A stretch of DNA of 64,000 bases. Origin: Bacillus sp. N1-1. GTDB lineage: Bacteria; Bacillota; Bacilli; Bacillales; Guptibacillaceae. This document shows positions 13,576 through 43,571 of this stretch, piece after piece; position 1 is the first letter of the stretch, and the number at the start of each line of letters is the position of its first letter. The translations under genes were made by a program, and so were the position numbers. The DNA is taken from contig NZ_CP046564.1 of assembly GCF_009818105.1 (NCBI RefSeq), positions 682,001 to 746,000 on the forward strand, read 5' to 3'. Under the pieces are notes generated by a model. That model ran no database searches. It saw nothing but the letters and a program-made list of their open reading frames with translations, and was not told where the DNA came from.

Positions 13576-14754
13576 ATGAAAGACGTTTTTATATTGGAAG
13601 GTGCAAGAACGCCATTTGGATCATTTGGTGGTTCACTCAAGGATATTAGTCCAACAGCCTTAGGGATTTCAGCAAGTAAAGAGGCTCTAAGAAAAAGTGG
13701 GATAGAGGCTAGAGAAATTGATCTTTCTGTTATTGGGAATGTGATTCATTCTACATCCAATGCTTCTTATTTAGCTCGTCACATTGCTCTTGGGGCTGGA
13801 ATACCTATTGAAAGTCCGGCACTAACAGTGAATCGACTTTGTGGCTCTGGCATGCAAGCTGTCATATCAGCAGTGCAATCCATTATGATGGGAGACGGTC
13901 ACACAGCCCTTGCCGGCGGAGCGGAGAATATGAGCTTATCTCCTTATACGTTAAGAGGAAGTCGTTTTGGAGCAAAAATGGGTGCTCCGAAAATGGATGA
14001 TATGCTTTTGGCTACGTTAACTGATGAGTATACAGGAACTGGAATGGGGATAACGGGAGAGAATCTTGCAGTAAAGTATGGGATTTCTAGAGAAGATCAG
14101 GATGAGTATGCAACCCAAAGTCAGCAAAAAGCTGCTGATGCAAGAGAGAAAGGTATTTTCATAGAAGAAATTGTACCTGTTGAAGTAAAGGGGAGAAAGG
14201 GGATTGAAACCTTTTCAACTGACGAACATATTCGAGAAGGTACAACAGCAGAAAAGCTAGCCGGGCTTAAACCTGCTTTCAAAAAAGATGGAACTGTCAC
14301 TGGTGGGAATGCAAGTGGCATAAATGATGGAGCCGCTTCTGTCGTATTAGGAGGAGCAGATTATGTCTCTTCAAAGAATCTTAAGCCACTTGCTCGAATT
14401 GTCTCCTGGGGAATAGCGGGAGTAGATCCTTCGATTATGGGAATTGGACCAGTGCCTGCTATACGGCAAGCATTAGATAAAGCAGGTATGACACTTCAGC
14501 AGATGGACTTGATTGAAGTGAATGAAGCCTTTGCTGCTCAATATCTAGCCGTTGAAAAAGAATTAGAGCTTGATCGCTCACGAGTGAATGTGAACGGCGG
14601 TGCAATTGCTTTAGGGCATCCAGTAGGTGCGAGTGGCACGCGCATTCTTTATACACTTATAAAAGAATTAAAGCGTAGAAATGGAAAGTATGGTGTTGCC
14701 TCACTCTGCATTGGTGGCGGACAAGGAATTGCTATGGTGGTTGAAATCAATTAA
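13576..14754 (+). CDS. Acetyl-CoA C-acetyltransferase (thiolase)
   Basis: 392 residues, full length for biosynthetic/degradative thiolase II. The acyl-accepting Cys is in [11 protein letters not shown] (about residue 88), the active-site His in [14 protein letters not shown] (about 347), and the second Cys in SLCIGGGQG (about 377). It cleaves acetoacetyl-CoA with CoA to two acetyl-CoA, the last step of ketone-body use, or runs in reverse. It follows the 3-hydroxybutyrate operon but has its own promoter with a cre box, so it can be made without the sigma-54 inducer. GGAGGGG precedes the ATG. Confidence 0.92.
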
Positions 14755-14768
14755 TTTGTCAGAAAAGA

Positions 14769-14797
14769 TTGCCAATTAAATAAATATTGCGTATACT
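14769..14797 (+). promoter_or_regulatory. Sigma-A promoter of the leader peptide / rsgA transcript
   Basis: TTGCCA (14769-14774), 17-nt spacer, TATACT (14792-14797). It starts a roughly 270-nt leader before rsgA. Confidence 0.75.
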
Positions 14798-14828
14798 AAT
14801 GGTACTAACATACGGAAAGGGGTTGTGC

Positions 14829-14891
14829 ATGATGGTAAATAACAAAAAGAATTCATTGTTAATTGCATATTGTGCACAGTCCAATTGGTAA
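14829..14891 (+). CDS. Putative 20-residue leader peptide controlling rsgA
   Basis: Short ORF encoding MMVNNKKNSLLIAYCAQSNW, with AAAGGGG ending 6 nt before the first ATG (9 nt before the second at 14832) and a good promoter 32 nt upstream. Its last codons (GCACAGTCC, 14874-14882) are complementary to the 5' arm of the terminator at 14928-14973. Translation state could therefore decide between terminator and antiterminator, as in antibiotic-responsive leader peptides such as those of erm genes. The hydrophobic SLLIAY stretch resembles nascent-chain stalling segments. Peptide role is inferred; it matches no leader I know. Confidence 0.6.
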   Translation: MMVNNKKNSLLIAYCAQSNW

Positions 14892-14973
14892 GGTAGGAGC
14901 CTTTTCTTACTTCTGATTAATAAGATCAAAACCATGGGCTGTGCGACTGTGTCGCTATGTCTATGGTTTTTTT
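14874..14973 (+). promoter_or_regulatory. Transcription attenuator (alternative terminator/antiterminator) in the rsgA leader
   Basis: Terminator: AAAACCAT (14928-14935) pairs with ATGGTTTT (14963-14970), extended by inner GCGAC/GTCGC (14943-14947, 14951-14955), and the T-run follows. Competing pairing: GCACAGTCC (14874-14882, inside the leader ORF) with GGGCTGTGC (14936-14944), 9 bp with one wobble; also CACAGTC with GACTGTG (14945-14951). A third hairpin GTAAG/CTTAC (14888-14892, 14906-14910) could free or mask the first segment. A ribosome finishing the ORF would cover the antiterminator strand. Confidence 0.65.
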
Positions 14974-15011
14974 ATGCTCGATCAGCTAATCACATACGCT
15001 GATTGTATGAT

Positions 15012-15040
15012 AAAAGCCGACATCACTGTACGGCTTTTTG
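15012..15040 (+). terminator. Second tandem terminator before rsgA
   Basis: AAAAGCCG and CGGCTTTT around an 11-nt loop with a T-run, only 35 nt before the rsgA start. Upstream small stems (ATCAGC/GCTGAT, CATAC/GTATG at 14981-15009) may compete. Confidence 0.7.
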
Positions 15041-15074
15041 TCATATTTACACTTATTAATCAGGAGGCTTTTAA

Positions 15075-16124
15075 GTGAATCGAATAAAATTAGGATGGAA
15101 TTCATACTTTGAAGAAAATTATCAAGCTATAGCAAATGGACTTATACCAGCTCGAGTTATAGTGGAACATCGTGGAGGTTATAACGTCTCTACAGGAGAA
15201 AGTTCTTATGCAGCAGAACTTTCAGGTAAGTTCCGATTTGAAGTAACACAGCGTGATGCTTTGCCAGCGGTCGGAGACTGGGTACTTATTGCTCCTAAAA
15301 CGGATAACAAAGCGATTATTCACCATTTGCTACCTAGGAAAAGTAAGTTCTCAAGAAAAATTGCAGGGACGACAACTGAGGAACAAATTATTGTAGCTAA
15401 TGTTGATACGGTTTTTCTTGTCAATGCATTAAATCAGGACTTTAACCCAAGTCGTATTGAAAGATACCTTGTCATGTCGTGGGAAAGCGGTGCAAATCCG
15501 GTTATTGTACTCAGTAAAGCCGATCTTTGTACTGATGTTGAAGAGAAAGTAAGTGCTCTTTCTAGTATTGCTGTAGGAGTACCGATCCACGTAGTGAGTT
15601 CAGCGACAGATAAAGGGATTGATAAATTAACAGCGTATTTAACAGAGGGAACAACAACAGCATTGTTAGGCTCATCAGGTGCTGGTAAGTCTACGCTCAT
15701 AAACAAGTTATACGGCCAAGAAATTCAGGGTGTACAAAATATTCGCGAAGATGACGGTAAAGGAAAGCACACCACAACTAGTCGAGAACTGATTACGCTT
15801 CACACAGGTGGCGTACTAATTGATACACCTGGTATGAGAGAACTTCAGCTCTGGGAAACAGATCAACTTTCTCAAGGCTTCCCTGATATTGATGCATTTG
15901 CACAGCAATGTCACTTTAGAGATTGCCAACATGATGGTGAACCAAAATGTGCTGTAAGAAATGCTATAGAGGAAGGGTTGTTGGAAGAAAGAAGGTTTGA
16001 GAACTATAAAAAGTTCCACCGTGAGCTAGCTTTTCTTGAGCGACAAACGAACAAAAAAGCTCAGCTGGATGAAAAGAAGAAATGGAAAAAGTTAGCAGGA
16101 GATCGTACAAGAAAGCATCGCTAA
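15075..16124 (+). CDS. rsgA: RsgA-type ribosome small-subunit-dependent GTPase (extended paralogue)
   Basis: 349 residues, about 50 longer than B. subtilis RsgA (YloQ). N-terminal OB-fold (about 20-95), circularly permuted GTPase with G4 SKAD (147-150), G1 GSSGAGKST (199-207), switch KHTTTSR (231-237), G3 DTPG (250-253), and a zinc site Cys279, Cys284, His286, Cys292, followed by a basic Lys/Arg tail. RsgA checks the 30S decoding site during maturation. GTG start with AGGAGG 7 nt upstream. The usual rsgA sits between prkC and rpe; here it is isolated, longer and preceded by an attenuator, so it is probably a second, inducible copy. That would suit a role in rescuing or reshaping 30S under ribosome stress, which is inference. 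Confidence 0.85.
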   Translation: MNRIKLGWNSYFEENYQAIANGLIPARVIVEHRGGYNVSTGESSYAAELSGKFRFEVTQRDALPAVGDWVLIAPKTDNKAIIHHLLPRKSKFSRKIAGTTTEEQIIVANVDTVFLVNALNQDFNPSRIERYLVMSWESGANPVIVLSKADLCTDVEEKVSALSSIAVGVPIHVVSSATDKGIDKLTAYLTEGTTTALLGSSGAGKSTLINKLYGQEIQGVQNIREDDGKGKHTTTSRELITLHTGGVLIDTPGMRELQLWETDQLSQGFPDIDAFAQQCHFRDCQHDGEPKCAVRNAIEEGLLEERRFENYKKFHRELAFLERQTNKKAQLDEKKKWKKLAGDRTRKHR

Positions 16125-16152
16125 GCTCTTTAATTTGGAAGGAGACGATCAG

Positions 16153-16650
16153 ATGACGGATAAGCGCTCTGTGTTAAACGATTATGCATCGCTAATTAAT
16201 TGGTTAGAATCGATTGCTATGGAGATGACCGAAACCATCTTTTTTCAGCCTATTAAACAAGACAAGTGGTCTCCGGCTGAAATCCTTTCACATATCATGG
16301 TGTGGGACAATTACCTTCTTAAAGAAAGAATTCCCTTTATTGAAAATGGAGTCAATTTACCTAGACTTGATAATGTTGAAGAAGTTAATCAGCGTGCAGC
16401 AGAGTATGCGAGATCTGGTCTATCAAAAGAAAAATTAATTGCTGAAACCGTACAAGCGAGAAGACAAGTAGTGGAGCATCTTCAGTTAGTTGAGCCGATT
16501 GAGTGGATGAGCACATTTTATATCGATAGGTATCCAATCTGTCTTACAAGTTATATTAAAGGTCTTATTGAGCACGATGATCACCATAAGTTGCAAGTAG
16601 AAGTTTTTATGAACGAGCAAGGATTTTCCCTGTCCCACTTTACTTTATAG
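16153..16650 (+). CDS. DinB-like family protein
   Basis: 165 residues with the DinB/YfiT four-helix pattern. The metal-binding His positions fit SPAEILSHIMVWDNYLL (about residue 47) and LIEHDDHHKLQVEVF (about 145-150). Proteins of this fold include bacillithiol-dependent transferases and many unassigned members. The ATG at 16153 has GGAAGGAG 8 nt upstream and is preferred over the TTG at 16135. It follows rsgA by 28 nt without a terminator, so it is probably in the same attenuated transcript. Function and substrate unknown. Confidence 0.78.
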   Translation: MTDKRSVLNDYASLINWLESIAMEMTETIFFQPIKQDKWSPAEILSHIMVWDNYLLKERIPFIENGVNLPRLDNVEEVNQRAAEYARSGLSKEKLIAETVQARRQVVEHLQLVEPIEWMSTFYIDRYPICLTSYIKGLIEHDDHHKLQVEVFMNEQGFSLSHFTL

Positions 16651-22760: not shown

Positions 22761-22821
22761 ACGGCATGGGGAAATAAGCAAGCTTCTATAAAATTTCAAA
22801 GAAAGCTTACTACTCCACCAT

Positions 22822-22947
22822 CTTCTCCCATCCAGACTATACTGTCGGCTCTGGAATCACACCAGATCCTGCCCAAAAAACAGGCTCGCGGGCTTGAGGA
22901 ATTACTTATCCTTCACCGCCGGTCGGGAATTACACCCTGCCCCGAAG
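22822..22947 (-). promoter_or_regulatory. FMN riboswitch (RFN element)
   Basis: Read on the minus strand the conserved RFN blocks occur in order: CTTCGGGGCAGGGTG, ATTCCCGACCGGCGGT, AGCCCGCGAGC, GGCAGGATCTGGTG, ATTCCAGAGCCGACAGT, and the closing GGATGGGAGAAG. All five peripheral stems can be paired. It lies upstream of ribU with a terminator in between. Confidence 0.95.
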
Positions 22948-23055
22948 ATAGTTCGTTATAATGTTTACAGCTTTATTATACAGTGGAATGAAGGATATCT
23001 CAATCATAACATCTTGAAACTAAGCTATTTTATGATAACGCTTTCGATAGATGCT

Positions 23056-41000: not shown

Positions 41001-41188
41001 AAAAAAGCCTCTTTCCGAAGAAAGAGGCTTGAAGAGATATCCTTCACACCTCTTATCTTCCAGGATAAATATCATCCTGTTGGAAGTAGCACCGTGCCAT
41101 CTAAGCCATCCTGTAAAGATGTACTTAAGAATAGGTCGGTTGCTGGGCGTCATAGGGCCAAATCCCTCAGCCTGCTCTTGATAAGAGA
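41001..41188 (-). promoter_or_regulatory. SAM-I (S-box) riboswitch with terminator, before mtnK
   Basis: Minus strand: P1 strands CTCTTATC (41188-41181) and GATAAGAG (41057-41050), conserved core GAGCAGGCTGAGGGA, GGCCCTATGACGCCCAGCAACC, GGTGCTA, then terminator stem AAGCCTCTTTC/GAAAGAGGCTT (41005-41030) with T-run. SAM binding favours the terminator. Confidence 0.95.
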
Positions 41189-43414: not shown

Positions 43415-43571
43415 CTCTTATCCAGAGAGGTGGAGGGACGAGCCCTTTGAAGCCCGGCAACCGATTTTTAAGTTTTCTTAAAGACACGGTGCTAATTCTC
43501 GCAGCAAAAGCTGGAAGATAAGAGGAAGAGCATGGTGATAAAGACCTCTTCCTCGTGAAGGGGTCTTTTTT
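43415..43571 (+). promoter_or_regulatory. SAM-I (S-box) riboswitch with terminator, before mtnW
   Basis: P1 strands CTCTTATC (43415-43422) and GATAAGAG (43517-43524), core GAGGTGGAGGGACGAGCCC, GAAGCCCGGCAACC, GGTGCTAATTC, then terminator AAGACCTCTTC/GAAGGGGTCTT (43541-43571). Independent of the mtnK riboswitch. Confidence 0.95.

Follow-up and report, generated by a model that had tools for sequence, protein, structure and literature searches.

A conserved leader with the anatomy of a ribosome-sensing dual attenuator precedes a second rsgA gene in Bacillales

Bacillus sp. N1-1 (Guptibacillaceae) encodes, besides its canonical RsgA, a second RsgA GTPase, and the gene for this paralogue, here called rsgA2, is preceded by a leader of about 270 nt that holds a small open reading frame (ORF) and two terminator-like hairpins. 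What does this leader do, and to what does it respond? The locus lies in a 64,000-nt stretch of contig NZ_CP046564.1 (assembly GCF_009818105.1, positions 682,001–746,000), hereafter the window, in whose coordinates all positions are given; the features of the locus are all on its forward strand. A preliminary description, made from the sequence of the window by itself, had likened the leader to the attenuators of bmrCD and ABC-F resistance genes, in which drug-stalled ribosomes on a leader ORF free an antiterminator. Comparison across genomes gives good support to a wider reading, in which the leader is a dual transcription–translation attenuator with a logic like that of vmlR, placed on an RsgA paralogue and widespread in Bacillales. 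The best explanation, which we consider highly probable, is that this attenuator senses ribosomes and frees rsgA2 when they dwell early on the leader ORF.

The centre of the proposed switch is segment 2 (GCACAGTCC; 14874–14882), a strand in the last codons of the leader ORF that can pair with either of two partners, one corresponding to the OFF and the other to the ON state. The ON partner, segment 3 (GGGCTGTGC; 14936–14944), lies inside the 5′ arm of the terminator T1 (14928–14973 with its U tract; hairpin 14928–14970, −22.2 kcal/mol), whose 3′ arm holds segment 4, and it pairs with segment 2 over 9 bp, one of them a G-U. The two strands co-vary between loci, with ACAGCCC/GGGCTGT, ACAGTCC/GGACTGT, CACAACCC/GGGTTGTG and GCACGTCAAC/GTTGACGTG among the variants; within the family the most distant member (L023) has CACAGCCC/GGGCTGTG and most other members have CACAGTCC/GGACTGTG. 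Folding and cross-locus pairing both indicate a mutually exclusive antiterminator and intrinsic terminator, as in attenuators of the vmlR, bmrB and hflXr type. The OFF partner is the anti-antiterminator strand, segment 1 (GGGTTGTGC; 14820–14828), which overlaps the Shine–Dalgarno sequence (SD) of the leader ORF (GGAAAGGGG; 14814–14822, by direct reading). Pairing of segments 1 and 2 appears in the full-length fold of the window leader and in the RNAalifold consensus of the family, and at 40 of 71 loci it is stronger than in 95% of shuffles, at 26 stronger than in 99%. An anti-antiterminator overlapping the leader SD and start is thus found in the window's family and is clear in many genera, and is not shown elsewhere. 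The fold of 14804–15080 reaches −98 kcal/mol, as against a mean of −60.4 for shuffled sequences (z = −8.27), and none of 200 shuffles was as stable.

A second switch appears to act on translation. Behind the leader ORF lies a strand, R5 (14894–14924), whose two arms (14894–14903 and 14913–14924) pair in the full-length fold with 15052–15073, forming a helix of 22 bp, A+T-rich in the window, across the rsgA2 SD (AGGAGG, 15062–15067). Its strands vary among genera yet remain complementary. The pairing is stronger than 95% of shuffled strands in 50 of 79 loci (99% in 41); when the equivalent strands from other loci serve as the comparison, it exceeds 95% of them in 41 of the 79 (99% in 20). Since R5 sits between segments 2 and 3, the 2:3 and SD helices cross and a nested fold cannot hold both; the mean unpaired probability of the SD is 0.07 in the free fold and 0.75 when 2:3 is enforced. 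Folding and cross-locus pairing therefore agree with dual control of the vmlR kind, whereby the SD is hidden in the OFF state and released by the antiterminator.

The whole arrangement is kept in the family. rsgA2 is found in all 15 family genomes examined (60–100% identity), and the promoter, leader SD, leader ORF, segments 1–3 and T1 are present at every one of these loci. The promoter in the window (TTGCCA-N17-TATACT, 14769–14797), which follows a thiolase gene (13576–14754), matches the consensus at 10 of 12 positions; the best promoter-like pair upstream of the leader SD has a 17-nt spacing and 9–11 matches of 12 in all 15 loci, which also share the leader-SD sequence GAAAGGGG. The second terminator-like hairpin, T2 (15012–15039, −11.1 kcal/mol), lies 36 nt upstream of the GTG start of rsgA2 at 15075. 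A plain terminator scan listed neither T1 nor T2, both of which come from separate folding. The promoter, T1, T2 and the 9-bp pairing had all been put forward in the preliminary description and are borne out, as is its expectation that ORF and pairing would be kept in relatives. Its alternative 7-bp partner for segment 2, GACTGTG in the T1 loop (14946–14952), is present in the window but conserved in only four of the 15 family loci (L009, L010, L011 and L013). Its 20-codon ORF with a ribosome-binding site stands as to the ORF and the SD, but the length needs correction: the ATG at 14832 has a counterpart in 15 of 15 loci and that at 14829 in four (L009, L011, L015 and L016), so the leader ORF (MVNNKKNSLLIAYCAQSNW; 14832–14891, stop 14889–14891) probably has 19 codons. 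The pairings of segment 1 with segment 2 and of R5 with the SD region were absent from that description.

Beyond the family, rsgA2 occurs in 167 of 299 sampled Bacillales genomes and in 69 of 116 genera (E 1e-70). Upstream DNA was read for 106 loci (order and family set) and for 80 named loci; the sets overlap and contain near-identical sequences, and the counts are of loci rather than of independent events. A detector was used that requires an SD and ATG, an ORF of 10–36 codons, and pairing of the ORF body with the 5′ arm of a T-tailed hairpin at a score of at least 18. This search for leader ORFs at other rsgA paralogues, which the preliminary description had proposed, was positive at 60 of the 106 and 21 of the 80 rsgA2 loci, as against one of 120 shuffles, and at true starts it found none in 15 canonical rsgA genes and none in 221 other genes (124 with mostly intergenic upstream DNA, 65 of those having a T-tailed hairpin). 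A looser control, in which stretches were taken from the matched part and intergenic and within-operon cases were mixed, likewise gave 0 of 15 and 0 of 227. When the ORF was left out of account, segment 2:3 pairing was found at 79 of 176 non-identical rsgA2 loci, compared with five of 221 other genes and none of the 15 canonical rsgA genes. A second scan, which asked for a leader ORF linked to an SD and for pairing of the ORF body with sequence further downstream at a score of at least 20, picked up 44 of 103 non-identical loci missed by the first detector, compared with three of 229 other genes; some of these 44 are terminator-type leaders that fell under the first detector's threshold.

Is the leader ORF translated? 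In a frame test, an SD and ATG were picked, blind to frame, 30–66 nt upstream of segment 2, which was possible in 71 of the 79 loci with the pairing. The frame of the picked ATG is open through segment 2 in 67 of these 71, as against six and 11 for the other two frames; at the four misses (L157, L202, L208 and L210) the wrong ATG had been picked, and the next ATG, read by eye, opens the frame. These frame counts are strong comparative evidence for translation. The eight loci that have no such start include several that resemble chance pairings. The ORF is 18–29 codons long in 66 of 70 loci having a stop, and its ATG lies 40–47 nt from segment 2 in 56 of 71 loci, a spacing that would keep segment 2 outside a ribosome sitting on the first codons. 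Given the usual ribosome footprint, segment 2 would stay exposed while a ribosome occupied any of about the first nine codons and would be covered once it had moved further along. Comparison across the loci thus shows a leader ORF, a covarying antiterminator pairing and, in most attenuator loci, a predicted helix over the rsgA2 SD.

The peptide itself appears free to drift. At 12 Guptibacillus loci no purifying selection on it was seen, the ratio of synonymous to non-synonymous steps being 5:15 in frame and 5:13 and 3:15 in the other frames, and the reading frame of the ACAG(C/T)C strand differs among loci (42, seven and one of 50). Among the 63 distinct leaders there is no residue that all share; I comes closest, being present in 52. 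The R/K-x-R/K motif of the macrolide RLR subclass is absent from the window leader and present in six of the 63. Repeated codons for one amino acid, as in trp-type attenuators, were not found in these leaders, codons 2–13 containing at most four of any one residue. Amino-acid-specific attenuation and the RLR macrolide subclass are accordingly unsupported, and peptide-specific arrest was rejected as the principal explanation, since the in-frame substitution ratio resembles that of the other frames and the frame of the strand varies. Of the ribosome-sensing attenuator of bmrCD or ABC-F type suggested in the preliminary description, then, the layout is conserved and covaries, whereas a drug-specific arrest peptide finds no support. 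While the peptide drifts, three features persist: the open frame, the RNA strand and the spacing between that strand and the start codon. Because the peptide shows no constraint at the 12 Guptibacillus loci and the frame of ACAG(C/T)C varies, general sensing of slow early translation is the better fit, and the drift points to such sensing over a single arrest peptide.

From these features we infer the following order of events. Normally, ribosomes would traverse the leader ORF and cover segment 2, leaving segment 3 to join T1; with no ribosome present, segment 1 would hold segment 2 and T1 would form just the same. Transcripts leaking past T1 and T2 would be kept silent by R5, which holds the rsgA2 SD. 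Under stress, a ribosome held at the start codon or within about the first nine codons would mask or separate segment 1, and the freed segment 2 would capture segment 3, so that T1 fails; because the two helices, 2:3 and R5:SD, cross, the SD of rsgA2 would be freed as well. The likely signals would be drugs, or conditions, under which ribosomes stay near the start of the leader, and antibiotics are a likely one. The 30S subunits or ribosomes so affected would then be the target of RsgA2, a paralogue of the 30S-maturation GTPase that does the housekeeping work; that RsgA2 protects or repairs them is plausible, if short of probable.

Several observations weigh against this mechanism. In nascent-RNA folds 2:3 forms with a ribosome mask reaching to +27 or +39 and is lost with a mask to +51, but unmasked nascent RNA ending at segment 3 already folds 2:3, a point that equilibrium folding cannot decide; since free nascent RNA forms 2:3, the OFF state would require that a ribosome cover segment 2 or that 1:2 form early. 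In 31 of 71 loci, Fictibacillus included, the 1:2 pairing is no better than 95% of shuffles, and the two both-sided changes in it counted in the family alignment come from L023, where the strand is apparently shifted, which makes them weak evidence. R5:SD likewise does not exceed 95% of shuffles in 29 of 79 loci. T2 has no visible antiterminator, which leaves unexplained how ON transcripts get past it, and 37 of the 60 order-set attenuator loci have an additional terminator-like hairpin located after T1 and before the SD. The 63 leader peptides contain no conserved arrest motif, and many rsgA2 loci have no detected leader: 59 of the 103 misses of the first detector, many of them in Paenibacillus, score below 20 in the second scan. 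As further observations on this part of the leader, T2 recurs in many genera, where its core (GACCGTnnnnACGGTC) is frequently similar, and two Fictibacillus loci (L054 and L235) carry between terminators and gene a G+C-rich repeat-like insert, the two inserts being partly reverse complements of each other.

Could a simpler arrangement account for the locus? Two terminators behind an operon are not unusual, and T2 is a simple terminator-like hairpin, so that the region could be ordinary read-out from the thiolase gene with a small ORF arising by chance. This is already contradicted by the conservation seen across loci and has next to no probability: in the window both terminators come after the promoter, a promoter-like pair precedes the leader at all family loci, and the ORF frame, the covariation of the segments and the silence of the detector at 221 other genes all speak against chance. 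A length of 22 bp and A+T-richness in the window would also suit an RNA thermometer or a static translational brake in R5:SD, with the attenuator merely setting a low basal level. The position of R5 between segments 2 and 3, however, makes the helix controllable by the 2:3 switch, and a comparable SD-sequestering layer is reported in vmlR (PMC9226507); we regard the thermometer or brake as very improbable.

Other alternatives accept the attenuator and differ in its signal or its output. Slow early translation might come from starvation, cold or scarce mature 30S subunits instead of antibiotics, and RsgA2 output would then answer ribosome supply. The drift of the peptide is as expected if dwell time alone matters, the leaders contain no drug-specific motif, and RsgA acts in late 30S maturation (PMC8579695). 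On the other hand, residue counts in the 63 leaders indicate that no single amino acid is sensed, and a covariance model of the leader (described below) also finds genes of drug-resistance type, so that a non-antibiotic signal seems doubtful though deserving of thought. As to output, RsgA2 may lower translation under stress, inactivating or parking ribosomes rather than protecting them, as ribosome inactivation by the E. coli GTPase RsgA is reported to inhibit phage T4 (PMC10475562). Against this stands HflXr, an induced paralogue of another ribosome GTPase, which protects (PMC6310831), an analogy that says nothing direct about RsgA2; a translation-lowering role appears distinctly unlikely. 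Induction by ribosomes dwelling early on the leader, through a dual attenuator, remains the preferred reading.

What does the leader control? The product of rsgA2 (15075–16124) is a predicted protein of 349 residues that scores 190.3 bits against TIGR00157 (cut-off 100) and passes the cut-off for PF03193, while RsgA_N (PF16745) falls below its own. The GxxxxGKS, DTPG and CX4CXHX5C positions are invariant in nine sequences, and the predicted protein has the circularly permuted GTPase domain, OB domain and zinc knuckle of the RsgA family. Its AlphaFold model (mean predicted local distance difference test score, pLDDT, 75; predicted template modelling score, pTM, 0.63) has only RsgA/YjeQ/YloQ proteins among its top 15 structure matches. 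Its closest named relatives are from Guptibacillus/Pseudalkalibacillus; the canonical RsgA of the same genome is 33% identical to it. A search with PF03193 found RsgA in all of 61 Bacillales genomes and two or more copies in 42. Canonical copies in all 15 family genomes stop one or two residues past the matched part, near residue 325 of RsgA2, which by comparison has a conserved, lysine/arginine-rich C-terminal extension of about 25 residues; the model places a C-terminal helix at 305–348 with moderate confidence. The C-terminal helix of E. coli YjeQ is reported to release RbfA (PMC4436671).

In some lineages the leader appears to be of a different design. Oceanobacillus L203, Lentibacillus L207 and three further Bacillales loci (L103, L104 and L111) have a leader ORF within about 120 nt of rsgA2, and at L203, L207, L103 and L104 the end of this ORF carries an SD-like GGAGG strand that pairs with a strand able to mask the real SD; by anatomy, these four are predicted to be translational attenuators. 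The Listeria locus L238 shows the same translational design, its 18-codon ORF containing GGGGGTATT, which pairs with AATGCTCCC, and CTCC lying opposite the SD. The record that carries this locus (NZ_CP030101, Listeria monocytogenes) is labelled a plasmid, although its 2.9 Mb is chromosome-like in size. Upstream of rsgA2-like genes, ORFs resembling the leader were also seen in Nostoc (L159), Leptolyngbyaceae (L190, L242), Calothrix (L166) and metagenome-assembled genomes of Thermoleophilia (L198) and Actinomycetota (L199). Outside Bacillota five of 15 non-identical loci (L159, L166, L190, L198 and L199) score at least 18 in the second scan and ten score below, a minority finding that offers leads only. 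Calothrix sp. NIES-4101 has two rsgA2 copies (L166 and L167) about 270 kb apart in opposite orientation, with identical sequence over the upstream 240 nt. On a plasmid record labelled Stenotrophomonas rhizophila (CP031730; L241), rsgA2 with a Lysinibacillus-like leader lies directly upstream of fosB; the label may reflect a mix-up or a transfer.

Relatives of the leader as an RNA were sought with a covariance model built from the 15 family leaders and run over 150 genomes. Of its 27 matches, 20 are at rsgA2, one is antisense over an rsgA2 leader and six are elsewhere. Two of the six (L218 and L227) precede multidrug-type ABC exporters whose best NCBIfam match is the SmdA family, below cut-off in proteins cut by the end of the locus, and which presumably resemble BmrC. 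One (L231) stands before an ABC ATPase that by eye is of the ABC-2 type, and a homologous Fictibacillus pair (L235 and L236) stands before an ABC-F ribosome-protection protein, over cut-off and verified for L236 only. The last (L234) looks like coding sequence. Matches with E near 0.01 could be due to chance, although inspection of L231 and L236 by eye reveals a leader-like terminator at both. The closest RNAs that the model found thus precede genes that, judged by sequence, are of drug-resistance type. No Rfam family matches over its gathering score within 14769–15078. Elsewhere in the window Rfam matches over that score are found at 22816–22953, 41050–41187 and 43415–43524, namely an FMN riboswitch (minus strand) and two SAM riboswitches (one per strand), and the gene downstream of rsgA2 (16135–16650) encodes a protein of the DinB_2 superfamily (PF12867).

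These observations allow a broader proposal, which we put forward tentatively: RsgA2 may form an unrecognised, widespread, inducible class of ribosome-protection GTPase for the 30S decoding side, the counterpart of HflXr on the 50S side. It would be a housekeeping duplicate whose expression stalled ribosomes induce by way of leader attenuators that drift independently, being transcriptional or translational according to lineage, and the class may extend beyond Bacillota. If so, it would be the second duplicated ribosome GTPase, after HflX, under antibiotic-type control, a 30S-directed stress or tolerance factor would be predicted in a large share of Bacillales, and translation stress would be linked to 30S maturation in a way that can be tested. 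The persistence of the start-to-strand spacing and of the crossing SD helix while the peptide drifts should in any case help to find other leaders.

No leader of rsgA is described among the matches listed from the open-access literature, in keeping with the preliminary description. The closest known system is the vmlR leader of B. subtilis (PMC9226507), which shares an upstream ORF (uORF) in or beside the anti-antiterminator, an antiterminator, an intrinsic terminator, and an SD whose sequestration is relieved by the induced fold; two of three natural uORF variants tested there equalled the native one. It differs in having a uORF of three codons (MIN), where rsgA2 leader ORFs mostly have 18–29, in hiding its SD in a local hairpin (SL-4) instead of a long-range helix enclosing T1 and T2, and in controlling an ABC-F protein rather than an RsgA paralogue (PMC9226507). 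Its NusG pause motif, TTNTTT, is absent from 14891–14930 of the window by direct reading. The bmrB-bmrCD system of B. subtilis (PMC4191407) shares a translated leader and a terminator; several ribosome drugs induce it, and loss of the start codon abolishes induction. Its terminator lies within the bmrB coding region and it controls an efflux pump, unlike the rsgA2 leader, yet the covariance matches at L218 and L227 place leaders of the present kind before such ABC exporters in two relatives.

In the nature of its target the rsgA2 leader has a precedent in hflXr/rli80 of Listeria monocytogenes (PMC6310831), where a leader-ORF attenuator made up of anti-antiterminator, antiterminator and terminator likewise controls an extra copy of a housekeeping ribosome GTPase. 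The hflXr leader peptide has 14 residues and an RLR motif, and HflX acts on 70S/50S particles whereas RsgA acts on 30S; protection is demonstrated for HflXr, and for RsgA2 it is proposed by analogy (PMC6310831). The toiL uORF of E. coli topAI (PMC12121999) senses many ribosome drugs, stalling at various codons, as is proposed for the rsgA2 leader, but it controls a toxin–antitoxin operon through release of the ribosome-binding site and Rho. A stress-linked RsgA/EngC paralogue is, finally, not wholly without precedent: the Streptomyces coelicolor pair SCO6149/SCO5211, named among WblC-activated genes and their paralogues, ties an RsgA paralogue to translation-drug stress, as is suggested here, although that pair is under trans control by WblC and rsgA2 would be under that of a leader in cis (PMC7157823).

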